Below are positions 7,029-41,337 of a DNA stretch of 64,000 nucleotides, piece by piece. The position numbers and the translations under genes are program-made. Numbering within the stretch: position 1 is the stretch's first letter; each line of letters opens with the position of its first letter. The notes under the pieces are model-generated. The model saw only the letters and a program-made list of their open reading frames with translations, did not search any database and had not been told where the DNA came from. Origin of the DNA: Hyphomicrobiaceae bacterium (GTDB taxonomy: Bacteria > Pseudomonadota > Alphaproteobacteria > Rhizobiales > Hyphomicrobiaceae); assembly GCA_022844275.1 (NCBI GenBank), contig JALHMB010000001.1, positions 953,677-1,017,676 on the forward strand. The letters are read 5' to 3'.

Positions 7029-9324
<2,296 letters not shown>

Positions 9325-9332
<8 letters not shown>

Positions 9333-11882: not shown

Positions 11883-11900
11883 GTTTCAAGCCAGTAATGC

Positions 11901-11946
11901 GCTGGAGCCCTGACTACTCTCCCCCGAAAGCAGCCAGGGCTCCAGC
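11901..11946 (-). terminator. Strong stem-loop between binding-protein and permease genes
   Basis: A perfect 12-bp inverted repeat, GCTGGAGCCCTG at 11901-11912 and its complement at 11935-11946, with a 22-nt loop. It lies 12 bp after the binding-protein stop and has no T-run on the minus strand. It probably stabilises the upstream message or reduces read-through so that binding protein exceeds permease. Confidence 0.6.
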
Positions 11947-11958
11947 AAATGCTGTTCC

Positions 11959-13170: not shown

Positions 13171-13312
13171 ATCGAAGGTCCTCCTCAATCCGTCGGCAGC
13201 AGGACGTGCCAACGTCCCACTCGACGGGGTTCCTCTCCTTTAAGTCGGGCTCTTGTGGCGATTGCTCAGGCCCGCGCTTGACCGAGTGAATACCATATGG
13301 TGGGGTGCTAAA

Positions 13313-14320
13313 ATGGACGCAACTGCCGAAAAGATGCACAAAACATCGCGCAGAGGGAGATCAGACCTCTTATTGACGCGTTCGGCGAGCGTTCTGCCGC
13401 AAGCCGCCTCGAAGTCAGAGAGGCCTGCCGAGGTCATTGCTACCCGCCTCCGCTCGGTTGTTGTCGAAAGCCACTTCGCGGCCCGTGAGTGGCGCCTCGA
13501 CAGCGGCGTATCGAGCGGCTTCGATCACTGCCTGGTTCTGCAGTCGGGTGAGGGGTGGCTCCATGCCGGAGGCGAGCGTCTGCACGTGCTGGGCCCCGCC
13601 TTTGTCTGGAGCCCTGGCAATTCGGCAGAGAGGCTGGTCATCGAGGCGGGCGGAAGCGGCCACATCGTCCACATTCGACGGGATCTCATCGAGCAGACCT
13701 TCCGTCAGATTCCCGAAGCCGGCGACCTCATCAACCTGCTCGGCGCCGAGCAGCCGCTGGCGCTGGCGATCGAGCCGCAGAGTGCCGCACATCTTGCACA
13801 TCTTCTCGCCCTCATTTTGCATGAGCTGAACGAGCCGCGCCCGGGGTCGGAGACAGTGATCTCGGCCGTACTTCTGATTTCATTCGTGCAGCTTTGGCGT
13901 CATGTCGGTGCGCGGGCGCTCGCGTTCGGCGAAACTGTCGGTGCTGCGGCGCTGCTGATGCGGTTTCGGCAGCTCGTGGAAGAGCGCTTCCGAGAGCAGT
14001 GGACTGTCGCACGCTATGCCGAAGTGCTGGGCGTCACGCCTGGCCGCCTCCACGCGATTGCCACGCGCACACTCGGGCGCACGCCGCGTGCGCTCATTCA
14101 GCAGCGGCTCATCTACGAAGCGGCCGTCCGCCTCGAACGCTCGGCCATCACGATCAAGCAGCTCAGCCACATGCTCGGCTTCAAGGATGCTGCCTACTTC
14201 AACAGATTCTTCGCCAAGCATGTCGGGCTGCCCCCCGCGCGCTATCGGCGAGCGATTGTTCACCGCAATGTCGCGGGGCGTGCGCCGCACTCACCCTTCA
14301 CCTTCTACGACTGGCCGTAA
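13313..14320 (+). CDS. AraC-family transcriptional regulator
   Basis: 335 aa. Residues about 40-150 form a cupin-like sensor half; residues about 235-325 are an AraC/XylS DNA-binding domain with two helix-turn-helix units, the second in ITIKQLSHMLGFKDAAYFNRFF followed by GLPPARYRR. It is divergent from the ABC importer operon, with 142 bp between the starts, so it probably activates that operon and perhaps itself. A 10-bp palindrome ACCATATGGT at 13292-13301 lies just before the start. ATG 13313 is preferred to an upstream GTG that lacks a good ribosome site. Confidence 0.88.
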   Translation: MDATAEKMHKTSRRGRSDLLLTRSASVLPQAASKSERPAEVIATRLRSVVVESHFAAREWRLDSGVSSGFDHCLVLQSGEGWLHAGGERLHVLGPAFVWSPGNSAERLVIEAGGSGHIVHIRRDLIEQTFRQIPEAGDLINLLGAEQPLALAIEPQSAAHLAHLLALILHELNEPRPGSETVISAVLLISFVQLWRHVGARALAFGETVGAAALLMRFRQLVEERFREQWTVARYAEVLGVTPGRLHAIATRTLGRTPRALIQQRLIYEAAVRLERSAITIKQLSHMLGFKDAAYFNRFFAKHVGLPPARYRRAIVHRNVAGRAPHSPFTFYDWP

Positions 14321-14502
14321 CGATCGGCCACCGTATAGGCATTTCGCGATGGTGAAGGGGACGTCACAGTTTCCCGACCTGCGGGGGATACAGTTGCCGG
14401 GCGCGATGTCCGCTTTCCCTGGAGGCTGTGTGACATCGGCGACGGCTCGGTCGCTGGCGAATATTCAGCCAGAACTGGTCTTCCGGTGGGCATTCGAGGT
14501 CT

Positions 14503-14825
14503 CGACAGTTCGCACCATGTACTCGCCATGGAGCATGAATAACTTAAGCCTGCTGTCGGAATCGGCGAACAGACCCGCTTTGCCACATCCTCAGGTGCAG
14601 GCTGAGGTGGCGGCGTACCATCGCGCTCCTCACGCATGTGGGCGAGGTTCCCCGCCACCAGACCGCCGCACAGGCGCCCGCAGTACCTGATGCGGTGGCA
14701 GCCCTCGGTAGTACGTGCAGGCACCGACGTACTCATGGGGGCGAGCATCGAGGTTTTGTCCCAGTTGGTTATTCGATCCGGTAGTCCCTGACCCGCAACT
14801 TGACGCTCCTCTCGTCACGGATCAG
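14503..14825 (+). repeat. 323-bp dispersed repeat, copy 1
   Basis: Nearly identical to 56158-56480 in the same orientation and of equal length; by eye about seven mismatches. Both copies start at CGACAGTTCGCACCA and end at CACGGATCAG, with unrelated flanks. I see no long terminal inverted repeats and no target duplication. It may be a non-autonomous mobile element or a fragment left by recombination. Confidence 0.8.
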
Positions 14826-14984
14826 CAGGAACCCAAGGCCTAGTTCTTCCGCTCGATTGCATCCGGATTGGAAGCGCCTGCGCTTCGATTGGAGGGGCAC
14901 TGCGACGTTTGCCCGCCCGTCTCTGGATTGCGGGCGACTGCGGGCCCCGATCCGTTCGCGAAGCCTGGCGAAAAAGCAGGCTTG

Positions 14985-15002
14985 ATTTCACTGACATGAA
15001 AT
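14985..15002 (+). promoter_or_regulatory. Operator-like palindrome upstream of dctP
   Basis: ATTTCA and TGAAAT form a perfect inverted repeat around a 6-bp spacer. The core TTCACTGACATGAA agrees at 11 of 14 positions with the palindrome found before hyuA and before the XRE-cupin gene. It lies about 74 bp upstream of the dctP start, so this gene probably belongs to the same regulon. Confidence 0.5.
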
Positions 15003-15075
15003 CCGACAGTAGTGCGCGCTCGGCGAAAACCGCAGCCACGCGCGAATTCGGCAAGCAAGTGAAAGGTGGACGGTC

Positions 15076-16203
15076 ATGCGATCAAGGATTTTGATAGGTT
15101 CGTTCTGCGCGCTTGCACTCGCCGCAACCTCGGCTATGGCAGCTCGCGAGTTCAACGGGAGCATCTGGTTCCCGGACACCCATCCGCTGACCAAGGCGTA
15201 CCTCGACTGGGTCAAGCGGCTCGATGCGGCCTCTAAGGGCGAACTCAAGGCCAAGATCTTCACGGGCACCGCGTTGCTGCCGCCCAATGCGCATCTCTCG
15301 GGGCTCAAGGACGGCATCGCTCAAGTCACTTACCACGCGGGAACATATACACCGACCGACCTGCCCGAAGACAACGTCGTGTCGATGCTGGCACTCGGCT
15401 ACTCGGACACGATGGCCCTCACGTTCGCGGTCACCGACTTCTACATGACCGATCCTGAGATGATGGAGCGCTTCAAGCGACACCGGATCGTGTTCGCCGG
15501 CGGATATGCGACGCCGCCCTACAATCTGATGTGCACGAAAAAGGTTGCAACTCTCGCTGATTTCAAGGGCCTGAAGATACGGATGCCGGGCGTGATCCAC
15601 GCCGATTGGGCCAAATCCGTCGGGGCGGTGCCTGTGAGTGTCCCTTCGACCGAAATGTTCACGGGCCTCGAGAAAGGCCAACTCGACTGCGCCGCCAACG
15701 CCGCGAACGACCTCAAGAGCCGCTCACTCTGGGATGTCGCCAAGCACACCAGCCAGATATCGGTCGGAGTCTACTGGGCGGGCTGGCAGTGGGCCTTCAA
15801 CGGCGGCTTCTGGAAGGAGCTGAAGCCAGCCGAGCGGCGCATCCTGCTCGATACCATTGCCGACAGCATTCCGCCGATGGCGCTCGGCTATATGAAGGAC
15901 TCCGATGACGCCATTGCGGAAGCTCCATCCAAAGGCGTGACCGTCTACCCGGAGACCGATGAAATGCGCAAGTCCGTGCAGGACTTCAATGCGAAAGTCG
16001 CAAGGGCCCAGGCGATCGAGCAGGGCGCGTCCAAGTTCAAGCTCAAGGACCCCGAAGGATTGATCAAGCGCTTCGAGGCGACGATCGCCAAATGGGACGG
16101 CGTACTCAAAGGCGTCGACCGCAAGGATCCGGTGGCGCTCGCCAAGGTGCTCAAGGACAATCTCTACTCGAAGATCGACGTCAATACGTATGGCGTCTAC
16201 TGA
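15076..16203 (+). CDS. dctP: TRAP transporter substrate-binding protein (DctP), separated from its permeases
   Basis: 375 aa with a signal peptide (MRSRILIGSFCALALAATSAMA). An AAAGGTGG site precedes the ATG by about 8 nt. DctP features: WFPDTHPLTKAYLDWVKRL at the N-terminus, DFKGLKIRMPG with the ligand-binding Arg near residue 165, and FTGLEKGQLDCAANAAND. It is clearly different from the dctP at 1372. No permease gene follows on this strand; dctQ and dctM of matching age lie convergently on the other strand beyond the C-N hydrolase gene. It is probably the receptor for that permease. Confidence 0.9.
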   Translation: MRSRILIGSFCALALAATSAMAAREFNGSIWFPDTHPLTKAYLDWVKRLDAASKGELKAKIFTGTALLPPNAHLSGLKDGIAQVTYHAGTYTPTDLPEDNVVSMLALGYSDTMALTFAVTDFYMTDPEMMERFKRHRIVFAGGYATPPYNLMCTKKVATLADFKGLKIRMPGVIHADWAKSVGAVPVSVPSTEMFTGLEKGQLDCAANAANDLKSRSLWDVAKHTSQISVGVYWAGWQWAFNGGFWKELKPAERRILLDTIADSIPPMALGYMKDSDDAIAEAPSKGVTVYPETDEMRKSVQDFNAKVARAQAIEQGASKFKLKDPEGLIKRFEATIAKWDGVLKGVDRKDPVALAKVLKDNLYSKIDVNTYGVY

Positions 16204-16211
16204 GATCGTCG

Positions 16212-16241
16212 GCGCCTGGCGGGGCACATCCCGCCCGGCGC
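16212..16241. terminator. Hairpin between convergent genes
   Basis: GCGCCTGGCGGG (16212-16223) and CCCGCCCGGCGC (16230-16241) pair at 11 of 12 positions around a 6-nt loop. It lies between the dctP stop and the oppositely oriented hydrolase stop. There is no T-run on either side, so it would act as a weak bidirectional terminator or 3'-end protector. Confidence 0.55.
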
Positions 16242-16251
16242 TGCGCCCGCG

Positions 16252-17139
16252 TCACGCCCGGCCTTGCAGGACGGGATAGAGTTCCGGACGGCGCTGCTCC
16301 ATCAACGGGTAGCGCCGTTTCACTTCGGCGATGAAATCAAGATCGATATGGGCGGTCACCAGCCCTTCCTCATCCGAGGCGGTGGCGACGATGGTGCCCC
16401 ACGGATCGACGACCATGCTGCGGCCAACAAATGCGAGGCCCGATTTCGGCTCCTTGCCATACTGACCGGCGGCAACGATGAAGCACTGGTTCTCGCAGGC
16501 GCGGGCACGGAGGAAGAACTCCCAATGATCGAAGCGCGGCGACAGAAACGCGGACGAGCAGGTCATGATCTCCGCGCCCTTCAACGCCAGCTCGCGGTAT
16601 AGCTCTGGAAAACGCAGATCCGAGCAGATCGTCATGCCGATCCGGGCGAGATTGGTCTCGAACACGTCGACTGCGCCGCCCTTGCCGACCTTCGCACTCT
16701 CGATGAAACCCGGAGGAATGTCGGCCCGATTCGGTGCATCGAAAAGATGCGTCTTGCGGTAGATGCCGAGAACAGCGCCATCGGGCGAGATCAGCGGCGA
16801 GGTATTGTAGTAGGTGTCGGCGGCGCGCTCGTACATCGATCCCGAAAGATACATTCCGTACTTGCGGGCGCGCTGGCCAAGCGCCGCCGTGATCGGACCC
16901 GGGATCGGCTCGGCGATCTCGCGGTAGCCGGTTTCGTTCGAGAACTCGATGCCGGTCCACATTTCGGGGAGAACGCAAAGATCGCTGCCGCGCGCGCCCG
17001 CCTCGTCGATCAAACGGAACAATTTCTCGACGTTCTGCGACTTCTCGCCGTCGACCGCGGTGATCTGTATCGCCGAGACCACCAGCGTCCGGCGGCGATG
17101 GGCTTCGGTCTGCAAGGACGTCTCTGCCTTGTCCATCAT
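16252..17139 (-). CDS. Carbon-nitrogen hydrolase (nitrilase superfamily amidase)
   Basis: 295 aa. The Glu-Lys-Cys triad is visible: Glu in LCVLPEMWTG, Lys in GIYRKTHLF, Cys in GMTICSDLRFPELYR. The arrangement is that of aliphatic amidase, N-carbamoyl-amide hydrolase and omega-amidase branches, not of nitrilases proper. GAGAGG lies just before the tandem ATGs. It is the last gene of the operon after dctM (22-bp gap), so it could hydrolyse the carbamoyl or amide product released by the HyuAB enzymes upstream. Cytosolic. The exact substrate cannot be read from sequence. Confidence 0.88.
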   Translation of the reverse strand: MMDKAETSLQTEAHRRRTLVVSAIQITAVDGEKSQNVEKLFRLIDEAGARGSDLCVLPEMWTGIEFSNETGYREIAEPIPGPITAALGQRARKYGMYLSGSMYERAADTYYNTSPLISPDGAVLGIYRKTHLFDAPNRADIPPGFIESAKVGKGGAVDVFETNLARIGMTICSDLRFPELYRELALKGAEIMTCSSAFLSPRFDHWEFFLRARACENQCFIVAAGQYGKEPKSGLAFVGRSMVVDPWGTIVATASDEEGLVTAHIDLDFIAEVKRRYPLMEQRRPELYPVLQGRA

Positions 17140-17161
17140 GCGCGCCTCTCAGTTCTTTTTG

Positions 17162-18469
17162 CTATTTCATCAAGCTCGGCAGCACGAGGGCGAGCCACGG
17201 AAATGCGACGATCAGGGTCAGTGTGATCATGTCGGCAACGACGAACCACGCAATACCACGAAAGATCGTCGACAGTGGAATCAAGGATCCCAGGGCACTT
17301 TTCATCACGTACACGTTGAGGCCGACCGGCGGCGTCACGAGACCGATTTCCAAGAGCTTGACGAGGATGATGCCGAACCAGATCAGGTCGGCTCCGACGG
17401 CCCTGGCGATGGGCATGATGATCGGCATCGTCAGCAGCAGGATGCTGATCGAATCGAGGAAGCAGCCGAGGATCAGATAGAGGACCACCACCATCAGGAC
17501 AACGGTGAGCTGGTCTCCGCCCATGCCGAGCAGCCACTTCGAGATCACCTCCGGCACTCCGGTCAGCGCCATCATCTTGCCGAGGAGCACCGTCCCGATC
17601 ACGACCATGAAGATCGACGCCGTACCGGACAGCGCGCTGAGGCTGGCCTCCTGCAGCACGCGCCAGCTCAACGTTCCCTTGATCGCGGCGAGCACAATGG
17701 CCAGCGCCGCACCGACTGCCGCGCCCTCAGTGGGCGTGAAATAACCGACGAAGATCCCGACGAGCACGCTGATGATGAGGATCGGCAGTGGCCAGACGTC
17801 GGCAAGCGCCGCCCGTCTTTCCTCGGGCTTGAACTCCTCTGTGACCGGTGGGGCGAGCGTCGGGTCGAGCTTGACGCGGATGATGATCATCGCCGCGAAC
17901 ATAAAGGCTGACATGATGCCGGGGATGAAGCCGGCCATGAACAGCTTGGCGATGGAGACGTCGGCGAAATACCCGTAGAGCACCATCAATAGACTGGGCG
18001 GGATCATCGATCCCAGCGTGCCGGCGGATGCGATGACGCCGGCCGCCAGGCCAGGATCATACTTGTATTTGAGCATCTCCGGCGTCGCGATCCGGGCCAT
18101 GGCGGCCGACACGGCTACCGACGAGCCGGATGCCGCCGAAAGGAAGGCACAGGCCGCGACACTTGCGATGGCGAGGCCGCCCGGCAACCAGGACAGCATC
18201 ACGCGCATCGCCTGGAATAGCCCCGCGGTGAGGCCGGCGGAGAACGCAATGTATCCCATGAGCAAGAACATCGGGATGGCGGTGAGATTCCAATCACCGA
18301 CGAAGTTGAAGGGTATAGCTGTGACCATTCCCCATGCCGGCCGCCAGCCGAGAATGGTCGCGATACCGAAGAAAGACACGATGCCGAGCGCGACCCCGAT
18401 CTGGATCCGAAGCGCGATGAGGATCACCCCCGCGCCGGTTGCCATCATCCCGATCGTGAACTTGTCCAT
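17162..18469 (-). CDS. dctM: TRAP transporter large permease (DctM)
   Basis: 435 aa with about 12 membrane helices. Family signatures are SAASGSSVAVSAAMARIATP, GTLGSMIPPSLLMVLYG, FTPTEGAAVGAALA and VTPPVGLNVYVMKSALG. It forms the transport channel with the dctQ product encoded 10 bp upstream. Its sequence differs clearly from the DctM at 3171, so the two TRAP systems probably handle different substrates. Placement between hyuB and the C-N hydrolase ties the transporter to the cyclic-amide operon. Confidence 0.92.
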   Translation of the reverse strand: MDKFTIGMMATGAGVILIALRIQIGVALGIVSFFGIATILGWRPAWGMVTAIPFNFVGDWNLTAIPMFLLMGYIAFSAGLTAGLFQAMRVMLSWLPGGLAIASVAACAFLSAASGSSVAVSAAMARIATPEMLKYKYDPGLAAGVIASAGTLGSMIPPSLLMVLYGYFADVSIAKLFMAGFIPGIMSAFMFAAMIIIRVKLDPTLAPPVTEEFKPEERRAALADVWPLPILIISVLVGIFVGYFTPTEGAAVGAALAIVLAAIKGTLSWRVLQEASLSALSGTASIFMVVIGTVLLGKMMALTGVPEVISKWLLGMGGDQLTVVLMVVVLYLILGCFLDSISILLLTMPIIMPIARAVGADLIWFGIILVKLLEIGLVTPPVGLNVYVMKSALGSLIPLSTIFRGIAWFVVADMITLTLIVAFPWLALVLPSLMK

Positions 18470-18479
18470 CGGGTGAGCC

Positions 18480-19016
18480 TCAGTTCCGGGCCTGATTGGC
18501 CATGTCGGGCGACTCGGGCGATGGCGCGAATGTGGGGTCGGTCGCGGCCTTCCAAGCGTGCAGGAGCACCTGGAGCAGCATCACGAAGAACCCGATCGGC
18601 AGGAGGAACTTGGCCGGCCATACCGTGATGTAGATCGATGACATCAAAATCTCACCGATCGCGTAGGCTTCATAGGCGTCCTTTGCGGTCTGGTAGGTGA
18701 GGAGAGCGAAGAAGACGGCGCAGACGACGTATCCTATGACCATGATGATCCGACGCGCGATCGCCGGAAGCCTTTCGACCAGCAGATCCACCGTGATGTG
18801 CTCGTGCCGTCTCTCGACCAGCGCCAGCGGCAGGAATACGACCGCCACCATGTGATAGACGGAGACAATCTCGAGGCTGCCTTCGATCGGTCGGCGGAAG
18901 AAATTGCGCATCGCTACGTCGACCACCATCTGCACCATCATCAGGAACAGCGCCACCATCGCGATGCCCATCAGCAGGCGCGCAAGCACGCTGGTCATGC
19001 GGTCGAGTGTCAGCAT
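18480..19016 (-). CDS. dctQ: TRAP transporter small permease (DctQ)
   Basis: 178 aa with four hydrophobic helices, starting MLTLDRMTSVLARLLMGIAM. The region VDVAMRNFFRRPIEGSLEIV after helix 1 and HITVDLLVERLP after helix 2 follow the DctQ pattern. It lies 34 bp downstream of hyuB and 10 bp upstream of dctM in one minus-strand transcription unit. Confidence 0.88.
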   Translation of the reverse strand: MLTLDRMTSVLARLLMGIAMVALFLMMVQMVVDVAMRNFFRRPIEGSLEIVSVYHMVAVVFLPLALVERRHEHITVDLLVERLPAIARRIIMVIGYVVCAVFFALLTYQTAKDAYEAYAIGEILMSSIYITVWPAKFLLPIGFFVMLLQVLLHAWKAATDPTFAPSPESPDMANQARN

Positions 19017-19050
19017 CGCCTACTATCCCCGATGATCGCGCCGTCTCTCG

Positions 19051-20739
19051 TCAATCGATGTTGGGTCCAAGCTTGCCGTTGGCCTTGTCGGCACGACGGG
19101 CGTCGTCGCTGCGTGCGGACGGCGGTCCGTAACCGCCGGCGCCCGCGGTCTCAATCACCAGCTTGTCCCCCGGCGAAAGCTGCGTCACGATTTTCGACGG
19201 GATCGTCTCGCTGGAACCATCCCGTCGCATGATCCATGACCTCGCAGCCGTGCCTGCTGCTCCGCCTTTAGCCCCCACGGCCGGCACGAAGTGGCGCTCG
19301 CCTCGATGCGAGAAAGAGAGCGACCCTTCGATGTCGTCGAGTATCTCGTATTCCTTCACCTGCCCGAGGCCGCCGCGCCATGTGCCATCGCCGCCCGAGC
19401 CGGCACGAAGCGTCCAGCGATTGACGCGGATCGGGGCTTCGAGCTCCATCGCCTCCGCCGGCAGATTCATGCAGTTGGTCGCGTCGGTCTCGATCGCGTC
19501 GACGCCGTCGAAGCCGTTTCCCGCGCCGCTGCCGCCCGCCAGCAATTCGCCCGTCACGAAATTTTCACCACCCTTTCGGCGACCACCGAACGCCATCACC
19601 AGGAGCTGGCCGGCGCTCGGCGCGGGCACGCGATCGGGCGCGGCGCCCGCCAATGCCGCGAGCATGCACCCGGTGATCCGCTTGATGGTTGCCGTGCGCG
19701 CATTGACCGGTGCCGGCGCCTGCGGATCGACAAGACTTGCCGGCGGCAGCCGCAGTGAGATGGGGCGAAAGCACCCGCCGTTGTTTGGGATCATCGGATC
19801 CGTGATGGCGCGAACCGCGAAACAGGCCGCCGCGAGGCTGCCCGACGGCACGCAATTCACCGGCCCCTTCACCTGGCCGCTGGTTCCCGTCAGATCGAAT
19901 GAAATGGTGCCGTCGCCCGGCAGCGTGACGGCCACTTCGACGCGGATTCTGCGATCGAGATCGATGCCGTCGTTGTCGAGGTAGTCGACATGCCGCCATG
20001 TGCCCTGCGGAAGCAGCTTCAATGCCGCGCGTGTCATCGCTTCCGAGCGGTCTAGCAGCAGACGGAACGCCGTCAGAAGCGTCTCGTCGCCGAGGCGATC
20101 GGCCGTCTCGCGCAAACGCACGCCGGCGATCTTGCACGCGGCGACCTGGGCATTGAGATCACCGATGAAGATGTCCGGAATTCTGACGTTCTGCCGCAGG
20201 ATCCGCGTGAGCGTCTCGTCGAACACGCCTTCGCGCGCCCACTGCACGGCGGGCAGGCGAATGCCTTCCTGGAAGATCTCGGTCGAGTCGGTCGGCACCG
20301 ATCCCGCGGACTTCCCCCCGACGTCCTGATGGTGCGTCATCGTTGCGGCGAGCGCCACGGGCCCCGCGCGACTTAACACCGGCATCACCACGGCGACATC
20401 AGGCAAGTGCGTGCCGCCGCAGTAGGGATCGTTGAGAATGTAGGTATCGCCCGGCTTCATCGTTGCGACCGGAAAGACACGGATGATCTCGGCAACAGCC
20501 GGAATGAGCGTGCCGAGATGGATCGGAATGGCGCACGCCTGGGCGAGTGTCGTGCCGTCGAGCGTGAAGATCGACGCCGACGCGTCGAGACCTTCCTTGA
20601 CGATCGGCGAGCACGAGCTTTTCAGCAGCGCCGTCTCCATTTCCTCGGCGATGCAGTCGAGGCGGTGACGCAGCACCTCGAGGGTGACCGGGTCGAACGT
20701 ACTCTGGCTGCTCTGCGTCTTCGCGTGTATAGCCATCAT
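19051..20739 (-). CDS. hyuB: Hydantoinase B/oxoprolinase subunit (second pair)
   Basis: 562 aa HyuB subunit. Family segments: FDPVTLEVLRHRLDCIAEEM at the N-terminus, ILNDPYCGGTHLPDVAVVMP near residue 100, TMTHHQDVGG, NNGGCFRPI and a C-terminal AGAGGYGPP. I use the ATG at 20739, which overlaps the hyuA stop as ATGA and has GGAG 6 nt upstream. With HyuA it forms an ATP-dependent ring-opening amidase (5-oxoproline, N-methylhydantoin, caprolactam) or a related carboxylase. It is about as distant from the HyuB at 22799 as separate subfamilies, so it is not a recent tandem copy. Confidence 0.92.
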   Translation of the reverse strand: MMAIHAKTQSSQSTFDPVTLEVLRHRLDCIAEEMETALLKSSCSPIVKEGLDASASIFTLDGTTLAQACAIPIHLGTLIPAVAEIIRVFPVATMKPGDTYILNDPYCGGTHLPDVAVVMPVLSRAGPVALAATMTHHQDVGGKSAGSVPTDSTEIFQEGIRLPAVQWAREGVFDETLTRILRQNVRIPDIFIGDLNAQVAACKIAGVRLRETADRLGDETLLTAFRLLLDRSEAMTRAALKLLPQGTWRHVDYLDNDGIDLDRRIRVEVAVTLPGDGTISFDLTGTSGQVKGPVNCVPSGSLAAACFAVRAITDPMIPNNGGCFRPISLRLPPASLVDPQAPAPVNARTATIKRITGCMLAALAGAAPDRVPAPSAGQLLVMAFGGRRKGGENFVTGELLAGGSGAGNGFDGVDAIETDATNCMNLPAEAMELEAPIRVNRWTLRAGSGGDGTWRGGLGQVKEYEILDDIEGSLSFSHRGERHFVPAVGAKGGAAGTAARSWIMRRDGSSETIPSKIVTQLSPGDKLVIETAGAGGYGPPSARSDDARRADKANGKLGPNID

Positions 20740-22802
20740 GTGCGCTCCATGAGCAAGGCTCCGCTTGCCAGAACACGCGCCGACCACATCGGTGGCACGA
20801 GCGTCGTCGAATCACTCTGCGCAATGATCGCCGGGCCGACGATCCGGTCGCCACTCTTGAGTGCCGACCGCTGGTGGATCGCGGTCTCGACGGGTGCGGC
20901 GCTTCCTGCAAACCGGACATCGCGGACACGCTCGCGTACCGGCTCCGCGGCCTGCGTCGCCGGACGATCGATCCGGCTTTCCGCCAGCACCGCCGAGTGC
21001 ACGACTCGCAGATTGACGATCTTGGCTGGCGCACCGGTTTTGTGACCATTGAGTTGCGTGTGCTTCGTCTCAAAATCGGCGTAGAGGCGCGACAGCGCGT
21101 CATCCTTGTCGTCGTCCAGCGGCACTTCGATGAAATGGCTTTGGGCAACGTAGCCGATATCGGCGAAGGCTTTGCGGTGCCGGGGCAGACCGTCGACGGC
21201 CTCCTGCCGCATCAAGTCGTCGGCGCGACGATCGAGCACAGCGACCTCGCGGCGGACGTCGGAAAGTTTCGTCGACGCCATGGGCGCGTGGAAGGCGCCG
21301 GCAACCTCGTGCGAGATCGGTGCTGTCAGCAGGCCCGCGGCCGCGAGCACGCCGGGATATCGCGGCACCAGGATACGTTCGATCGACAGTTCGTCAGCAA
21401 CGGCGGTGGCATGGAGGCCGCCGGCACCGCCGAGGGGCAGCAGGACGAACCGGCGCGGGTCGTGCCCGCGGTTCACCGAGACGAGCCGGACACCGTCGGC
21501 CATGCGACCATTGGTGATGCGATGGATGCCGAGCGCCGCCGTGACGACATCGATGCCAAGGGGGCGCGCGATGGTCTCCTCGATCGACGCGTGCGCGAGC
21601 GCCGGATCGAGACTGACCGCGCCACCTGCAAGACCCGACGTGTCGAGATAACCGAGTACGACCGAAGCGTCGGTGACGGTCGGCAGCCGGCCACCACGGC
21701 CATAGCATGCCGGGCCAGGATCGGAGCCCGCGGAGTGTGGCCCGACGCGCAATCCGCCGCCCGCGTCGATCCACGCAATCGACCCGCCGCCCGCGCCCAG
21801 CGTCGTCACGTCGAGCATTGGAACGCGAACGGCGTAGCCCGCGATCTGGGTCTCGGGACGCGCGTGGACGGTCCCGCCTTCGACGAGCGCAATGTCACTC
21901 GACGTACCGCCGACGTCGATGGTGATCAGGTCTTCGTATCCGTCGACCTTGCCGACAGCCGCGCTGCCGATGGCGCCGGCGGCCGGCCCCGAAAGGAACA
22001 GGCGCACCGGCCGCTGCCGGGCGGTTTCGACGCCTGCAAGGCCACCGCGGGACTGCATCACCTGCAACGGCGCCGGCACGCCGGATGCTGCAAGACCCTT
22101 GGCGAGGTTGACGAGATAGCGATCGACGACCGGCTTGATATAGGCGTCGAAGGTGGTGACGACAGTGCGCTCGTACTCGCGGAACGCGGGATCGACCTCG
22201 CTCGACAGCGAGACTTCGACGCACGGCAGAACTTCCTGCACGCGGGCTCTGATCCGCTGCTCGTGCGACGGGTCGAGAAACGAAAACAGCAGACTTATGG
22301 CGATAGCCTCGACCTTTAGCGGCCGCAGTTTTTCGATAGCTGCGTCGATGCTGGCCTGGTCGAGCGGCACAACGACGGCGCCGTGCGCGTCGATGCGCTC
22401 GCGAACCTCGACGCGCCGCTCCCCCGGCACCAGCCAACCCGGCGTCTCGGGCTGCAGGCGCAGATCATACATCTGCCGACGCATCTGCCGGCCGATCTCC
22501 AGGATGTCGCGAAAGCCTTCCGTGGCGATCAACCCGACGCGCGCGCCTTTGCGCTCGATCACCGCGTTCGTGGCAACCGTCGTGCCATGAGCGAAGCGCG
22601 TGATGTCCCGTGGTGAAATGCCATGCTTCGTCGACAGCTCAGTGAGGGCCGCCGCGACGGCATCGCTCGGATTGCCCGGCGTCGAGGCGACCTTGAGCAC
22701 CACCGAACCGCGCGGGCCAATCGCGATGACATCCGTGAACGTGCCACCGATGTCGATCCCGACGCTCCATCCGTGGTGCGGGGCCGGGGAGCCTGATGTC
22801 AT
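20736..22802 (-). CDS. hyuA: Hydantoinase A/oxoprolinase subunit (second pair)
   Basis: 688 aa HyuA subunit, an ASKHA-fold ATPase: the phosphate-binding motif SVGIDIGGTFTDVIAIG is at residue 13, FAHGTTVATNAVIERKGARVG at about 65, and ITIDVGGTSSDIALVEGG in the second half. HyuA phosphorylates the amide for ring opening in partnership with HyuB. Start and stop overlap both neighbours by 4 bp (ATGA), so all four hyu genes are translationally linked except for a 4-bp gap after the first. Confidence 0.93.
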   Translation of the reverse strand: MTSGSPAPHHGWSVGIDIGGTFTDVIAIGPRGSVVLKVASTPGNPSDAVAAALTELSTKHGISPRDITRFAHGTTVATNAVIERKGARVGLIATEGFRDILEIGRQMRRQMYDLRLQPETPGWLVPGERRVEVRERIDAHGAVVVPLDQASIDAAIEKLRPLKVEAIAISLLFSFLDPSHEQRIRARVQEVLPCVEVSLSSEVDPAFREYERTVVTTFDAYIKPVVDRYLVNLAKGLAASGVPAPLQVMQSRGGLAGVETARQRPVRLFLSGPAAGAIGSAAVGKVDGYEDLITIDVGGTSSDIALVEGGTVHARPETQIAGYAVRVPMLDVTTLGAGGGSIAWIDAGGGLRVGPHSAGSDPGPACYGRGGRLPTVTDASVVLGYLDTSGLAGGAVSLDPALAHASIEETIARPLGIDVVTAALGIHRITNGRMADGVRLVSVNRGHDPRRFVLLPLGGAGGLHATAVADELSIERILVPRYPGVLAAAGLLTAPISHEVAGAFHAPMASTKLSDVRREVAVLDRRADDLMRQEAVDGLPRHRKAFADIGYVAQSHFIEVPLDDDKDDALSRLYADFETKHTQLNGHKTGAPAKIVNLRVVHSAVLAESRIDRPATQAAEPVRERVRDVRFAGSAAPVETAIHQRSALKSGDRIVGPAIIAQSDSTTLVPPMWSARVLASGALLMERT

Positions 22803-24496
22803 CCGGCCCGCCCGTAGAATGCGGCAGCCGTGGCGGGTGTTATGATGCCCTCGGCAATGTCTTTCTCGACGAGGGCTGGTTCGCGCTCGGCCGTCGGGCC
22901 ATAGCCGCCGCCACCCGCCGTGTACAACGTGAGGATATCGCCGGCCATCAGATCGACGCGGCCCTTGCTTGGCAGGCTGATCACCTTGCCGCCTCGCTCG
23001 ATCTCGCAGCGCGCCTTCGCCGCTTCCGTGCCGCCGAGCAACCCGGACGGGGCCAGCCGGAAGCGATCCGCGTAGATGGCGAGATTGACGCCGTCCTTAA
23101 GAATCTCGAAACGGCGAAAAAATCCGAGGCCCCCGCGGCGGCGGCCATGCCCGCAGCTATCGGGAATGAGCCCGTAGCCGACGATACGGAAATGCTCGAA
23201 GTCCATGTCGGTAGCTTCGACCGGCGTGTTGGTGCAATTCGACAGCGGGCTGTCGACGGCGTGGCAACCGTCGAGGCGCGGGCCGGCGCCGTAGCCGCCG
23301 CCGAAGACCTCTAGATACACGCGATAGCGGCCGCCATCGAGGTAGGCGATCGACGTCACGTCGGTGGAATCGTTGCCGTCGGCGATCACGCGGTCAGGGA
23401 CGACCTGGGCGAGCGCCTTCAGCACCGCGTTGAAACAGCGATAAGCCGTCAGCATGCGGGCCCGCACGGGCGCGGGATAGGACGGATTGACCAACGTGCC
23501 TTTCGGCGCGGTGATGCGGATCGGTTTCTTGACGCCCTCGTTGAAGGGAATGTCGGGGCTGGTCAGCGCCGATTTCACCGCCGAGAGCGTCGCCGAAATC
23601 GTCGAGGCCCAGGGACAATTGAGGTTCCGGCGCACCTGTCCGACGGTGCCGGTGTAGTCGACGGCGATGGTATCGCCCGAGATCGTGACCGCGGCCCGCA
23701 CGGTCAACGGGTCCGGCGTCAGCCCATCGTCGTCGACGTGCGCCTCGCCGTAGTACGTACCGTCCGGGATCGCCTGCAACGCCGCGCGAAACCGCCGCTC
23801 GGAATAATCGACCAGCTCGGTCATGGCGCGCGTGATCGTCGACGCGCCGTACTTGCCGCAGAGTTGCTTGATGCGTTGCGCGCCGATCGAATTCGCCGCG
23901 AACTGGGCGTAGAAGTCGCCGATGGTCTGGGACGGCACGCGGATGTTGGCGGCGACCAGCCGTTCGAGCGGACCGTCGCACCAGTCGCGCTGGTAGTTGT
24001 AGACCGAAGGCGGGAAGATGATCCCCTCGGCGTGGACATCGACTGCATCCGGCGTGAGGCCGGGATTGCCACCGCCGAGATCGAGATGGTGCGCCGTCGT
24101 GCCGGCAAACGCGACGAGCGTGCCTTCGTAGAAGATCGGCGAATAGATGAAGACGTCCTGGAGGTGCTGGCCACCGCCATAAGGATCGTTGTTGATGTAG
24201 AAATCGCCTTCCTTGAGCGTGTGCACCGGGTGGACGGCGGCACAGGCGCGGAAGATTTCCGACATCGGTCCGAGCTGCATCGGAATGAGCTCGGCCTGGG
24301 CGACGACGTTGCCCTCGCGATCGAACAGTGCCGCCGACGCGTCCTGCGCCTCGCGCACGATATTCGAGTAGGACGAGCGGATCATCTTCGTGCCCATCTC
24401 GCGCGCAGCGGCAATGAGGGCCTGGCTGATGATGGCGTAGTCGACCGGATCGAGCACATCCGCCGCTACTGGCGCCGTTGCGGTCAGCTCCTGCAT
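22799..24496 (-). CDS. hyuB: Hydantoinase B/oxoprolinase subunit (first pair)
   Basis: 565 aa HyuB. Hallmarks are DPVDYAIISQALIAAAREMG, YINNDPYGGGQHLQDVFIYSP, ATTAHHLDLGG-type histidines, FNEGVKKPIRI and the C-terminal TAGGGGYGP. It begins 4 bp after the first hyuA and overlaps the second hyuA by 4 bp. Together with HyuA encoded upstream it should form one of two distinct ATP-dependent hydrolases (or carboxylases) in this operon. Confidence 0.92.
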   Translation of the reverse strand: MQELTATAPVAADVLDPVDYAIISQALIAAAREMGTKMIRSSYSNIVREAQDASAALFDREGNVVAQAELIPMQLGPMSEIFRACAAVHPVHTLKEGDFYINNDPYGGGQHLQDVFIYSPIFYEGTLVAFAGTTAHHLDLGGGNPGLTPDAVDVHAEGIIFPPSVYNYQRDWCDGPLERLVAANIRVPSQTIGDFYAQFAANSIGAQRIKQLCGKYGASTITRAMTELVDYSERRFRAALQAIPDGTYYGEAHVDDDGLTPDPLTVRAAVTISGDTIAVDYTGTVGQVRRNLNCPWASTISATLSAVKSALTSPDIPFNEGVKKPIRITAPKGTLVNPSYPAPVRARMLTAYRCFNAVLKALAQVVPDRVIADGNDSTDVTSIAYLDGGRYRVYLEVFGGGYGAGPRLDGCHAVDSPLSNCTNTPVEATDMDFEHFRIVGYGLIPDSCGHGRRRGGLGFFRRFEILKDGVNLAIYADRFRLAPSGLLGGTEAAKARCEIERGGKVISLPSKGRVDLMAGDILTLYTAGGGGYGPTAEREPALVEKDIAEGIITPATAAAFYGRAG

Positions 24497-24500
24497 GGCG

Positions 24501-26516
24501 TCACCCCTTTCGCGTCAGAATTGTATTGTCGGCCGGATCCCGGCTCGCCGTCCAGCCTGCCGGAACCAGCAGCGTCGAAGTGGGATCTTCGAGGAGTGCC
24601 GGCCCCGGGACCGACGCTCCCCGACGCATCGCCGATCGGCTTTTCAGAACACCGTCATGCCATTCGCGATTGTCGAAGATGCGGATGCGGCCCTCCGCGA
24701 CCGCCCCCGTCGCGCTTTCGGTCAGCAGTGGCAGCTCGCCCAGCGGCAGGATGATGCCGAGGCGGAAGGAGACGAACTCGATCGGCTTGTCGCTGTCCTT
24801 GCCGAAGAAGTAGATCCGATCGTGGGCGTCGAGGAAGCGCTGGCGCACGGTCTGCGCCGACAGGCCATCGATTTCTGTATCGCTGAACGTAACCGGCACC
24901 TCGAAGGCCTGGCCGACGAAACGCATGTCGGCAGTGAATTCGAGCCGCAATGCGCCGGAAAGGCCGAGGGCCTTTGCGCGACCAGTCGCCCGCTCCTTCA
25001 TCTCCGCAAAGACCGACCGGACGAGATCGGCCGCCTCCGGTCCCGCGCGCTCGCGGCGCGTCAGGCTTTCGAACATCACGAAGTCCGACGCGATCAATCC
25101 ATAGGCCGAAATCACGCCGGCGGACGGCGGAATGACGATGGTTTTGATGGCGAGTTCCTCGGCGATCGGCGCCGCGTGTAGCGGCCCCGCGCCGCCGAAC
25201 GCGACCAGCGCATAGTCACGCGGATCGTAGCCGCGTTCCGTCGAGATGAGCTGGATAGAACGCACGATGTTGGCGTTGGCGAGGCGCACGGCACTGTCGG
25301 CGGCAGCCTCTATGCTGAGGCCGAAGCGATCGGCAATCGGCTGCAGGGCGGCGGCGGCGGCCTTCGTATCGAGTTGCATCCGCCCGCCGAGGAACGCATC
25401 CGGACGGACAGTCTGGCGGATGACATGCGCGTCGGTGAGCGTCGGCAGCGTGCCGCCACGGCCATAGCAGGCCGGGCCCGGATCGGCGCCGGCCGAATGC
25501 GGTCCCACCCTGAGCATCCCGCCGTCGTCGACCCAGATGATCGAGCCGCCACCGGCGCCTACGGTGCTTATGTCGAGGAGCGGCACACGAACCGGCAGTC
25601 CATCGATCGCGAACGACGTGGTCAGCTGCGGCTTGCCGTCGACGACGACGCAGACGTCGGTCGATGTGCCGCCGATATCCAGCGTGATCAGGTTCGTGAA
25701 GCCCGAGCGCGCGGCCTGTCGCACGGCGCCCATGACACCAGCCGCAGGCCCGGAAAGCAGCGCATTGATGGCGTTCGCGCGCATACCCGACGCCGGCAGG
25801 CGGCCGCCGTTCGACTGCATCACTGAAAAGCGGCCCTTGAAACCTTCGCGGCTCAGCCGATCTGAGAAGCGCGCGATGTAGCCATCGATGACGGGCTGCA
25901 CGTAGGCCGACAGTGTCGTCGTCGAGGCGCGCTCGAACTCGCGAAACTCCCGTGTGATCTCGGATGAAATGGTGACGTGAAGTTGCGGCAGTTTCGCCGC
26001 CAGCAAATCCCGCAGCGCTCGCTCGTGCTCGGCGTTCACATAGGAATTCAGCAGGCAGATGGCGACCGCCTGGAAGCCGCCGGCCGCCAATGCCGGCACG
26101 AGGTCGTGTGCGGCGCGGTCGAGGTCGAGCGGAGTGAGGATCGAGCCGTCGGCGAGAATCCTTTCTGCCACCTCGAAGCTCGCCGCTCTCGCCACGATGG
26201 GAGCCGGCTTCTGATACTCCAGATCATAGATGTTGTGGCGGCCGTGGCGCTCGAGGATGAGAATGTCCCGAAAGCCCTTCGTCGTGACGAAGGCGGTCGG
26301 ATATCCTTTCCGCTCGAGCACTGCGTTGGTCGCGACAGTCGATCCGTGAGCGAGGTCGTCAATCGCAGCGAACGGTATGCCGCTCTCGATGATCGCGTTG
26401 ATTGCACCAAGATCCGGCGACTTCGGAACACTGGGCACCTTGGTGACGCTGACGCCATTAGGTCCGATCGCAACCAGGTCCGTGAACGTACCACCCACCT
26501 CGACACCGACGCGCAT
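24501..26516 (-). CDS. hyuA: Hydantoinase A/oxoprolinase subunit (first pair), first gene of the operon
   Basis: 671 aa HyuA with MRVGVEVGGTFTDLVAIG at the extreme N-terminus (the usual HyuA start), LAHGSTVATNAVLERKG at about 57, ITLDIGGTSTDVCVVVDG at about 265 and a GGGSIIWVD glycine loop. First gene of the minus-strand unit hyuA-hyuB-hyuA-hyuB-dctQ-dctM-hydrolase. Its upstream gap has a promoter-like pair (TTGCGC, 16 nt, TATTTT) immediately before an XRE-cupin operator, so expression is probably repressed until an inducer binds the regulator. Confidence 0.93.
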   Translation of the reverse strand: MRVGVEVGGTFTDLVAIGPNGVSVTKVPSVPKSPDLGAINAIIESGIPFAAIDDLAHGSTVATNAVLERKGYPTAFVTTKGFRDILILERHGRHNIYDLEYQKPAPIVARAASFEVAERILADGSILTPLDLDRAAHDLVPALAAGGFQAVAICLLNSYVNAEHERALRDLLAAKLPQLHVTISSEITREFREFERASTTTLSAYVQPVIDGYIARFSDRLSREGFKGRFSVMQSNGGRLPASGMRANAINALLSGPAAGVMGAVRQAARSGFTNLITLDIGGTSTDVCVVVDGKPQLTTSFAIDGLPVRVPLLDISTVGAGGGSIIWVDDGGMLRVGPHSAGADPGPACYGRGGTLPTLTDAHVIRQTVRPDAFLGGRMQLDTKAAAAALQPIADRFGLSIEAAADSAVRLANANIVRSIQLISTERGYDPRDYALVAFGGAGPLHAAPIAEELAIKTIVIPPSAGVISAYGLIASDFVMFESLTRRERAGPEAADLVRSVFAEMKERATGRAKALGLSGALRLEFTADMRFVGQAFEVPVTFSDTEIDGLSAQTVRQRFLDAHDRIYFFGKDSDKPIEFVSFRLGIILPLGELPLLTESATGAVAEGRIRIFDNREWHDGVLKSRSAMRRGASVPGPALLEDPTSTLLVPAGWTASRDPADNTILTRKG

Positions 26517-26577
26517 GCCACCCGCTTCCTATGTGCTCCGGCGGAGGCCTCCCCCCAACCGGACAGCATCAGAAATT

Positions 26578-26591
26578 TTCACCACAGTGAA
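26578..26591 (-). promoter_or_regulatory. Operator palindrome at the hyu operon promoter
   Basis: On the minus strand this reads TTCACTGTGGTGAA, with arms TTCAC and GTGAA around TGTG. The same 14 bases occur at 28203-28216. It lies 62 bp before the hyuA ATG and directly after a candidate -10 box TATTTT (minus strand), so a bound protein would block transcription. Confidence 0.7.
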
Positions 26592-26752
26592 AAAATATCA
26601 GAACGCCAGACCCGCGCAAGTCGTAATGCCGTGCACAATTGTCGCGTCGTGCCCATGTTGCTGGCACGCTCCAGCGCTTGATGATCCTGTCAGGACCGCA
26701 AGCGCTTCGTTAGCGGATATCGGGCCCGCCGCAAAACAAATGTCGCTTAGCC

Positions 26753-28060
26753 TCAGGCCAGCCCGCCGTCCTGCATACTGTACCACGCGACGATCGCGGC
26801 GAAGTACGCCTGACGCAAACCATGCAATGGCAGCGGCTTGATGGTCATAGGTGGACGCGGCAGCGTATTGGGACGGCCGGTTGCCACGTAGTCCGCCATC
26901 GCGCGGCCCATCGCCGTCTGGACACCGACACCGCGCCCCATGCATCCGATGTCGATGAGAAGTCCTGGCTCGGGCTCATGAAGATGGGGCAGAAAATCCT
27001 GCGTGATCGCGACGCGACCGCACCAGCGATAGGCAATGGGGACGTCGCGCGCCTGCGGGAACAGCTTGCCGATGATCCGCTCGAGGTGCGACCAGTCTTT
27101 GTCGGATTTCGGCTCGCGATACGGTCCGCGGCCACCCATCAGTAAACGATTCTGGTGGTCAAGCCGGAAATAAAAAAGGAGCTGGCGTGTATCGGACGAG
27201 ACATGCCCTTCGGGCAGGATCGCAGCGGCGAGATTGCTCGATAAAGGTTCCGTTGCGACCTGATAGGAATTGGGCGCGATGATCGTCGTGGAGAGGCGCG
27301 GCACCAAGCCTGCACCATAGGCATTCGTACACACGACGACCCGATCTGCCGAAACCCGTGCGCCGCTCTCAGTCGTCGCGATCCACTTGCCGCCGTTGCG
27401 CGCGAGAGCGGTAACGGGACTACGGCCATAGATCGATGCGCCTGCCCCCAATGCGGCGCGCGCCAGACCACGCGCAAATGCCAGCGGCTGTATGGCGCCG
27501 CCTCGCGGATCGACCCAGCCGCCGAGATATCGGTCGCTGCCGATCAGACCGCTGGCTGCTGCGGAATCTAGGATGCGCGCGCCGGCCACGCCGCGCCGCT
27601 GCCACTGCTCGGCGCGACGCTTGACCAGTTCGACACCGGCCGGCGTATGAGCTGCTTGAATCCAGCCCGACCGCTTCCGCGGCACATCCATACGGTATCG
27701 CTCGATCAGATCGAATACAGTGTCGGCTGTCCCGGCGCCGAATGCCGCAAGCCGCCCGCCGATCTCCGGCCCGAATTTCTCCTCAAGCTCGTCGGGATCG
27801 TATTTCAGGCCGGGAATGACCTGGCCGCCATTGCGACCGGACCCGCCCCATCCCGGCTCCTGCGCCTCGAGCACAACGATCTCAGTCCCGCGCTCGGCAA
27901 GGTGCAGAGCCGTCGAGAGGCCGGCGTAGCCAGCACCGATGACCACCACGTCGGCCGATCGACTCTCGTTCAGCGGCGGCGTCGCCGGCGCCGGCGGTGC
28001 TGTCGCTGCCCACAACGATGGACTGAGAGGGAACGGCTCCGACATGATGACCGCGGTCAT
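26753..28060 (-). CDS. FAD-dependent amine oxidoreductase (DAO family, PuuB-like)
   Basis: 435 aa. The FAD-binding GxGxxG motif DVVVIGAGYAGLSTALHLAERG starts near residue 37, followed by GWGGSGRNGGQVIPGLKYD, the pattern of gamma-glutamylputrescine oxidoreductase and glycine/sarcosine oxidase-like proteins. C-terminal DIGCMGRGVGVQTAMGRAMADY closes the FAD site. It oxidises a primary or secondary amine. It is on the same strand as the hyu operon but 236 bp upstream of hyuA, with a promoter in between, and is divergent from the XRE-cupin gene. In PuuR-type systems such a regulator neighbours its oxidoreductase. ATG 28045 is an alternative start; neither has a clear ribosome site. Confidence 0.9.
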   Translation of the reverse strand: MTAVIMSEPFPLSPSLWAATAPPAPATPPLNESRSADVVVIGAGYAGLSTALHLAERGTEIVVLEAQEPGWGGSGRNGGQVIPGLKYDPDELEEKFGPEIGGRLAAFGAGTADTVFDLIERYRMDVPRKRSGWIQAAHTPAGVELVKRRAEQWQRRGVAGARILDSAAASGLIGSDRYLGGWVDPRGGAIQPLAFARGLARAALGAGASIYGRSPVTALARNGGKWIATTESGARVSADRVVVCTNAYGAGLVPRLSTTIIAPNSYQVATEPLSSNLAAAILPEGHVSSDTRQLLFYFRLDHQNRLLMGGRGPYREPKSDKDWSHLERIIGKLFPQARDVPIAYRWCGRVAITQDFLPHLHEPEPGLLIDIGCMGRGVGVQTAMGRAMADYVATGRPNTLPRPPMTIKPLPLHGLRQAYFAAIVAWYSMQDGGLA

Positions 28061-28202
28061 GGACTGCGTGCGACATAACGAGCACGCGTCTCGTCATGAC
28101 AATCTGACCGCCCGATAGAAGACTCTTGACGTTTGTGCGGCGCGTGCCTTTTGTTCGTAGGTGTCAGTATGCCATCGGAGCAGGAGTTCCGGCAATCAAA
28201 AT

Positions 28203-28216
28203 TTCACTGTGGTGAA
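28203..28216 (+). promoter_or_regulatory. Operator palindrome before the XRE-cupin gene
   Basis: TTCACTGTGGTGAA, identical to the complement of 26578-26591. It is 16 bp before the chosen regulator start and lies in the divergent region shared with the FAD oxidoreductase gene, so it could govern autoregulation and perhaps both genes. Confidence 0.7.
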
Positions 28217-28232
28217 GGCAAGCCTCAGCGCC

Positions 28233-28880
28233 ATGAACATGTCCAAAGCGGTCGCCGACCGAATAAGCACAAACCAGGAGATCGATCGCGTGGTCGGCGA
28301 GCGCATTCGCGAGCTTCGTCGGGCGCGCGGTCTTTCGCTCGAGATCGTGGCCGACCGCTGCGACGTATCGATCGGATTTCTGAGCCAGATCGAGCGCGGG
28401 ATGTCCTCGCCATCGCTGAAACTCCTGACGACGCTGGCCGACGTGCTCGATGTGCATTTCGGCACACTGTTCGTCACCGACGAGTCGGCAACGGTCGAGC
28501 CATCATCGCTTCCCCGAAAGGGCAAAGGCAAAAAGTCAGCGCCGACCTCAGTCGTCATGAGGGCGGGAAAGGGACCACGTCTGAAATTGTGGCGATCGGG
28601 CATTCACAAGCAACTGCTGACGGAGCCCGGTGCTCAGCTGCCCTTCAGCTATTTCACCATGCACATGGAGCCCGGCGCTACGTCGGGCGAGCAGCTTTAT
28701 CAGCACTCGGGGAACGAAGCGGGTCTGGTGCTCGTGGGCCGCCTCAGTCTCACGGTCGAGGATCAGACATGGCTCCTCAGCGAGGGCGATAGCTTCTTCT
28801 TTGCGAGCCACAAGCCACACAGGTTCGTCAATCCGAGCCGTGGCCGCACCAGCGTCGTCATGGTTCACACGCCGACCTGA
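28233..28880 (+). CDS. XRE-family regulator with C-terminal cupin
   Basis: 215 aa. Residues about 15-75 are a lambda-repressor-like helix-turn-helix: IRELRRARGLSLEIVADRC, then VSIGFLSQIERGMSSPSLKLL. Residues about 135-213 form a small beta-barrel cupin (EQLYQHSGNEAGLVLVGRLS, GDSFFFASHKPHRFVNPS) that usually binds a small effector. The architecture matches PuuR and similar repressors of amine and amino-acid catabolism. ATG 28233 leaves the operator just upstream; ATG 28239 is also possible, and no strong ribosome site distinguishes them. It is the likely regulator of the hyu/TRAP unit because identical palindromes precede both. Confidence 0.9.
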   Translation: MNMSKAVADRISTNQEIDRVVGERIRELRRARGLSLEIVADRCDVSIGFLSQIERGMSSPSLKLLTTLADVLDVHFGTLFVTDESATVEPSSLPRKGKGKKSAPTSVVMRAGKGPRLKLWRSGIHKQLLTEPGAQLPFSYFTMHMEPGATSGEQLYQHSGNEAGLVLVGRLSLTVEDQTWLLSEGDSFFFASHKPHRFVNPSRGRTSVVMVHTPT

Positions 28881-33090: not shown

Positions 33091-33095
33091 TCCGT

Positions 33096-41230: not shown

Positions 41231-41337
41231 CGGGATGTTCTCCTATGGTCCGAAATGTCCCTTAGCGCTTGCCAGATCGCCAATAGGACACACTCATCTG
41301 TGGAATACCGGGATGGCCGGCTAAGTGTCATCACCAT

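Follow-up and report, generated by a model that had tools for sequence, protein, structure and literature searches.

How can the receptor gene of a TRAP transporter be made alongside its permease when it runs against the operon that encodes that permease? The question is raised by a 64,000-nucleotide stretch of the genome of a Hyphomicrobiaceae bacterium (contig JALHMB010000001.1; the whole stretch is called the window here), in which an operon of two hyuAB pairs, the permease genes dctQ and dctM and a carbon-nitrogen hydrolase gene is convergent to dctP, so that dctP cannot share the operon promoter and needs its own. Beyond hyuA1 lie a gene for a flavin adenine dinucleotide (FAD)-dependent oxidase and one for an XRE-cupin regulator (Table 1). 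We consider the palindrome TTTCAYNNNNRTGAAA the likely operator through which this regulator would jointly repress the genes for uptake, ring opening and amine oxidation. Such a regulon explains how dctP could be made alongside dctQ and dctM, and it makes of an otherwise unexplained cluster a catabolic unit open to testing, for which regulator, operator and target genes can be named.

In the mechanism that we propose, a dimer of the regulator would bind each site through the helix S-I-G-F-L-S-Q. At hyuA1, where the palindrome begins with the final base of the candidate -10 box, a bound dimer would cover the start region just past this box and block RNA polymerase. A pathway compound in the cupin domain would release the regulator, and the operon hyuA1B1A2B2-dctQM-hydrolase and the convergent dctP would be expressed together. 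The TRAP system would import the substrate, ATP-dependent HyuAB would open its ring, the carbon-nitrogen hydrolase would cleave and the FAD enzyme would then oxidise an amine or imino acid.

Three palindromic sites in the window

The initial annotation had linked the regulator, the hyu operon and dctP through one shared 14-mer. This sequence, TTCACTGTGGTGAA, is indeed present exactly at 28203-28216 on the forward strand and at 26578-26591 on the reverse strand, and the core of the dctP site (14987-15000, embedded in ATTTCA-N6-TGAAAT at 14985-15002) matches it at 11 of 14 positions as reported. What the three sites have in common is the consensus TTTCAYNNNNRTGAAA and not an identical 14-mer. 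With up to three mismatches the 14-mer is found four times in the window, the fourth match being at 14343, compared with a mean of 2.86 in shuffled sequences, of which 30 in 100 reach four or more. This is not above chance, and the dctP site therefore needed support from outside the window. The 14-mer with mismatches was rejected as a defining motif because of this chance-level frequency.

The site before hyuA1 (O1) and that before dctP (O2) match the consensus perfectly, while the site between the divergent oxidase and regulator genes (O3) has one mismatch. Read on the reverse strand, the first base of O1 is the last base of the candidate -10 box. This box, placed before hyuA1 by the initial annotation, looks plausible by eye and is not listed by a stricter promoter scan; the candidate promoter has as its counterpart in a second species of the genus (G397), also read by eye, TTGCAC-N16-TAATTT. 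In the region 28202-28240, an in-frame GTG of the regulator gene lies inside the O3 palindrome and is also kept in G397, which leaves the start codon of the regulator uncertain.

In the 6.08 Mb genome, perfect copies of TTTCAYNNNNRTGAAA occur at four places: the hyuA1 site, the dctP site and two positions inside open reading frames (ORFs). The palindrome is thus not scattered at random in promoters, the perfect places outside the cluster being inside ORFs. Four randomly placed copies would give about 0.0008 in the 1.16 kb of noncoding DNA before dctP, hyuA1 and the regulator, where two are observed. A further 23 places have one mismatch, among them the regulator site at 28202, and the reversed control pattern is found 8 times with up to one mismatch, compared with 27 for TTTCAYNNNNRTGAAA. 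The first, window-derived pattern, TTTCACTNNNGTGAAA, had given a weak excess with up to two mismatches (16 per strand versus 10 and 11 for the control).

The motif upstream of related regulators

Outside support comes from relatives of the regulator, upstream of which the same palindrome ranks first, and the significance of the palindrome rests on this comparison. The regulator was searched against 397 genomes of the same order, 29 of which, own genome included, gave matches with E values of 1e-30 or lower. A set of 35 loci with wide flanks includes G397 and leaves out the own-genome stretches L086, L087 and L103; palindromes were enumerated de novo in 34 loci that exclude both the window and G397. 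A larger set of 70 loci combines searches at order, genus, family, class and phylum level without the own regulator; the matches G294:C23 and G659:C1:3791186 are missing from it, the search having supplied no locus for them.

Among palindromes with five-base arms in the 34 loci, TTTCA-N6-TGAAA ranks first (26 loci, eight of 11 genera), and among those with six-base arms TTTCAT-N4-ATGAAA is first by genera (12 loci, six genera). Perfect copies of TTTCAYNNNNRTGAAA are concentrated upstream of the regulator: in the 35 loci there are 31 in 25,025 bp upstream versus none in the remaining 618,446 bp, with 25 loci carrying at least one, and in the 70 loci there are 43 in 29,050 bp versus two in 211,897 bp. 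A matrix derived from the relatives alone ranks the dctP site first in the window (22.7), ahead of the hyuA1 site (18.6), a place at 41326 (18.0) and the regulator site (14.4). The background sequence of these loci, 576,290 bp in total, has zero, two and five places that reach the scores of the dctP, hyuA1 and regulator sites, respectively.

In 21 of the 70 loci (L024-L036, L038-L040, L132, L133 and L137-L139) two sites, one sometimes mismatched, stand 49 to 52 bp apart upstream of the regulator. This distance of about five helical turns suggests cooperative binding of two dimers.

The closest test of conservation is G397 (4.5 Mb of sequence, 87% complete, in 750 contigs). Its proteins are 92% (regulator), 92-95% (both hyuAB pairs), 90% (dctQ), 94-96% (dctM), 88% (hydrolase) and 95% (dctP) identical to those of the window. 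It contains exactly two perfect copies of TTTCAYNNNNRTGAAA, one between hyuA1 and the regulator and one before dctP, and none of the control pattern. The counterpart of O1, TTTCACCACCATGAAA, differs from it at two of 16 bp, one of them central and the other the degenerate R, and that of O2, TTTCACTCACATGAAA, has a single central difference. The alignment upstream of dctP ends at 14971, 15 bp past the site, so that the site is kept at the very edge of the conserved sequence. The other three congeners have one, zero and one perfect places, both inside ORFs. The regulon joining transport and ring opening, as the initial annotation envisaged it, is thereby supported, with hyuA1 and dctP sites that are rare in the genome and kept in G397, and the oxidase is added to it.

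The regulator has an N-terminal HTH_3 (XRE) and a C-terminal Cupin_2 domain, both above the Pfam cut-offs, and its predicted structure (predicted local distance difference test score 83.9) shows both domains, the best PDB match being 1y9q (template-modelling scores 0.69/0.82). The recognition helix appears to go with the operator. Where residue 49 in this helix is a phenylalanine, a perfect site is present in 21 of 22 loci (six of seven genera), compared with 11 of the other 48; Fisher's test over the 70 loci, which ignores kinship, gives p = 6e-9. The S-I-G-F helix is present in all 32 aligned proteins among 193 clustered relatives of the regulator. Two paralogs of the regulator were found in the genome; both carry different helices, and the 600 bp upstream of each contain nothing closer to the consensus than three mismatches.

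The other inverted repeats in the ten of 35 loci without a perfect site show no common alternative, but two of these loci, with the helix S-T-A-Q-L-S-M (L084 and L097), have the palindrome variants TTTCAGCGTGCTGAAA and TTTCAGCGTCATGAAA upstream of the regulator relative. These are palindromes of the TTTCAGCGT type in place of TTTCAY, as if the helix and the inner operator bases had changed together.

A scan of genome contigs with the regulator returned one close relative (92%), which coincides with G397 contig C127 in its match coordinates, and one distant Paenibacillus match, which was not used, and plasmid records gave three matches at 36-42% identity.

Operator assignment, the oxidase and other readings

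Several observations weigh against a common regulon with this operator. The consensus, including its Y and R positions, was fixed after both the relatives and the window had been viewed, so that only the palindrome enumeration is independent of the window. Ten of the 35 relatives are without a perfect site. Half of the phenylalanine-49 loci (11 of 22) belong to one genus. Site pairs about 50 bp apart are frequent in the relatives, while the window sites are single, nothing with fewer than four mismatches being found within 160 bp of them. Consensus promoter scans list no promoter in 26500-28300 or 14400-16400. No site is present in G397 at the place aligned with O3, so that autoregulation is not shown as a conserved trait. 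Finally, among the examined loci of the same family, G397 is the only one besides the window with a site close to a relative of the regulator, and of the six loci in 35 with both the regulator and hyuA nearby, only G397 has a perfect site.

Conservation beside orthologous hyu operons, which the initial annotation had named as a check, is shown for one congener: the hyuA and dctP sites are kept in G397, but the five more distant regulator-hyuA loci have no perfect site. One of these, L100, has two one-mismatch sites, the first directly upstream of the regulator and the second in the interval from the regulator to hyuA, and the other four (L089, L090, L091 and L101) have neither a perfect nor a one-mismatch site. 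All five differ from the window in their recognition helix, which is S-I-S-F in L101; this fits a different operator without proving it. In L090, from another congener (genome G399), an oxidase gene comes after hyuAB genes (9258-18141). The XRE-cupin gene nearby encodes a different helix and is not accompanied by a TTTCAY site; the pathway may be the same, with its control exerted through another operator.

The oxidase, which the initial annotation had left out of its finding, bears on the role of O3. In the window it faces O3. In G397 no gene match, and no oxidase, falls in the 388 bp that separate hyuA1 from the regulator. Opposite dctP, on the far side of the dctP site, this species has a different oxidase (45% identical), and after it comes a dimethylglycine-dehydrogenase-like gene. 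Both species thus have an oxidase facing a site, at different places. The other four genomes of the genus hold no relative of the window oxidase closer than 46%, and in other genera oxidases of up to 67% identity are encoded on the strand opposite to the regulator, with sites in between. Of the 35 loci, 28 have an FAD oxidase (at least 38% identity over 250 residues) within the fetched 19 kb stretch; the count of hyuA and oxidase neighbours covers these wide-flank loci only and not the 3.5 kb loci of the 70-locus set. O3 is the weakest of the three sites, with one mismatch and not kept in G397. We read it as an operator serving the oxidase and possibly also the regulator, an assignment less secure than those of the other two sites.

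A doubtful reading, although one that deserves serious consideration, is that genuine operators are confined to hyuA1 and dctP, the copy at the regulator having matched by chance or arisen recently. The mismatch in O3 and the lack of a site at the aligned place in G397 speak for it, as do the number of one-mismatch places across the genome and the fact that the right half of O3 coincides with the bases that immediately precede the regulator ATG and that are also conserved in G397. Against this, at the genome density only about 0.0007 one-mismatch places are expected in the 172 bp gap between the oxidase and the regulator, and of the two species, only the one that has the site also has a divergent oxidase facing the regulator gap. 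Far less probable still is that another regulator works the dctP site, for example the AraC-type protein encoded upstream of dctP (13253-14320), and that there is no common regulon. The dctP site has the top window score in a matrix built from XRE-cupin loci only, and G397 keeps it even though the sequence more than 15 bp upstream cannot be aligned to the window; the different helices of the two XRE-cupin paralogs also count against another regulator.

The regulator might also bind the same sites and activate, as reported for the XRE family member NceR, which a reference title describes as an activator of ompA. This is improbable here: the hyuA1 site starts where the candidate -10 box ends, a position that fits occlusion, the Pseudomonas aeruginosa family members, seven of them with defined regulons, are described as inhibitors in the available text on them (PMC7901475), and DbuR occupies its target promoter over the -10 element (PMC12724383). 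Joint repression of the uptake and breakdown genes from TTTCAYNNNNRTGAAA remains the preferred reading.

A more tentative proposal, which we put forward at less than even confidence, is that the operator is the fixed point of the regulon and that the oxidase beside a site is recruited to it, with the helix S-I/V-G-F and TTTCAYNNNNRTGAAA forming a recognisable pairing. The oxidases of the two congeners are different enzymes at different places in the cluster, which would stand under the same operator. Should the pairing be true, sequence alone would suffice to predict what many unassigned XRE-cupin regulators control, giving a handle on a widespread family with mostly unknown targets and inducers.

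Cluster features and known systems

Table 1. Coordinates of the cluster genes and putative control elements in the window.
Feature	Position	Strand	Description
Putative operator O1, TTTCACCACAGTGAAA	26577..26592	none	Perfect to TTTCAYNNNNRTGAAA; 60 bp 5' of hyuA1 start codon
Putative operator O2, TTTCACTGACATGAAA	14986..15001	none	Perfect to TTTCAYNNNNRTGAAA; 74 bp 5' of dctP start codon
Putative operator O3, TTTCACTGTGGTGAAG	28202..28217	none	One mismatch; between divergent oxidase and regulator genes
Possible further site, TGTCATCACCATGAAA	41326..41341	none	One mismatch; intergenic, between amidohydrolase and ABC solute-binding-protein genes; weak
Candidate hyuA1 promoter	26592..26619	-	TTGCGC (26619-26614), 16-base spacer, TATTTT (26597-26592); read by eye
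XRE-cupin regulator	28233..28880	+	215 residues; recognition helix VSIGFLSQIERGMSSPS
FAD-dependent amine/amino-acid oxidase (DAO family)	26753..28060	-	435 residues; between hyuA1 and regulator, facing O3
hyuA1	24501..26516	-	ATP-dependent hydantoinase/lactamase A subunit, 671 residues
hyuB1	22799..24496	-	Hydantoinase B subunit, 565 residues
hyuA2	20736..22802	-	Second A subunit, 688 residues
hyuB2	19051..20787	-	Second B subunit, 578 residues from first possible start codon
dctQ	18480..19016	-	TRAP small permease
dctM	17162..18469	-	TRAP large permease
Carbon-nitrogen hydrolase	16252..17139	-	Amidase/N-carbamoyl hydrolase type; last gene of presumed operon
dctP	15076..16203	+	TRAP solute receptor; convergent to operon

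The predicted local XRE-cupin regulon is well supported by comparison of sequences and belongs to a known kind of system, with a palindrome in the promoters adjoining the regulator and neighbouring enzyme and transport genes as targets. Its less ordinary aspects are the apparent exchange of oxidases under one operator and the pairing of the operator with the recognition helix. PuuR of Escherichia coli, a protein of XRE-cupin architecture, is associated with putrescine; the genes here are, unlike those of PuuR, hyu, TRAP and oxidase genes. The initial annotation had called the regulator PuuR-type, which is correct for the XRE-cupin architecture and not for the subfamily: PuuR (NF007408) is its best NCBIfam match, yet at 77.5 bits versus a cut-off of 211 this identity was rejected.

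The regulators described in P. aeruginosa are mostly local inhibitors, with palindromic motifs reported for PsdR, PauR and ErfA (PMC7901475). They resemble the present case in the local repression of neighbouring metabolic and transport genes via palindromes, but as far as the accessible text goes their operators, such as TTAAGxxxxxCTTAA for PsdR, and their pathways differ from those here (PMC7901475, PMC10965056). DbuR of Pseudomonas putida, in the available part of its description, gives a 44 bp footprint that contains a 20 bp palindrome and a predicted -10 element and is thought to block the polymerase (PMC12724383). It is likewise an XRE-cupin protein encoded divergently from its operon, which contains a D-amino acid oxidase gene and an annotated transporter, while its palindrome, AATTCTCATATATTAGAATT, is unlike TTTCAYNNNNRTGAAA, and the dbu operon, with an oxidase, a Rid2 protein and an ABC-type transporter, is described there without HyuAB or a separately promoted TRAP receptor gene (PMC12724383). 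A literature search that covered few subscription papers found, among the papers listed, no publication on a TTTCAY-type operator with hyu genes.

The nutrient handled by the cluster is probably a cyclic amide, judging from the enzyme families. Both A-B pairs carry Hydantoinase_A and Hydantoinase_B domains, as expected of ATP-dependent hydantoinases and lactamases, and among solved structures hyuA1 is closest to N-methylhydantoinase (439.6 bits), followed by 5-oxoprolinase (382 bits). These domains are shared with the caprolactamase CapAB and the two latter enzymes in the text available for them (PMC8453981). Unlike CapAB (PMC8453981), there are two A-B pairs in a row here, and the scores against the CapAB models NF050156 and NF050157 (CapA 468 and 542 bits, CapB 249 and 217 bits) are all below the cut-offs of 1000. 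The hydrolase resembles Nit2 and N-carbamoylputrescine amidase and, more weakly, N-carbamoyl-D-amino acid hydrolases. The best NCBIfam model for the oxidase is L-pipecolate oxidase (336 bits versus a cut-off of 600). A hydantoin or an N-methyl cyclic amide would be a suitable substrate for two HyuAB pairs combined with a hydrolase of the amidase type and FAD amine oxidases.

A dimethylglycine-dehydrogenase-like gene with DAO and folate-binding domains is located at 33087-35582 on the forward strand. It may belong to the same pathway because a 54-60% identical counterpart comes after the oxidase in G397.

The 41326 site stands before the ABC solute-binding-protein gene. It is absent from the syntenic region of G399, although this genome keeps the neighbouring genes; among the regulators found in G399 none has a window-type helix. 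A single ORF of 782 residues on the reverse strand (7029-9377) combines an ABC transporter ATPase domain with an aldehyde dehydrogenase, an unusual fusion if real.

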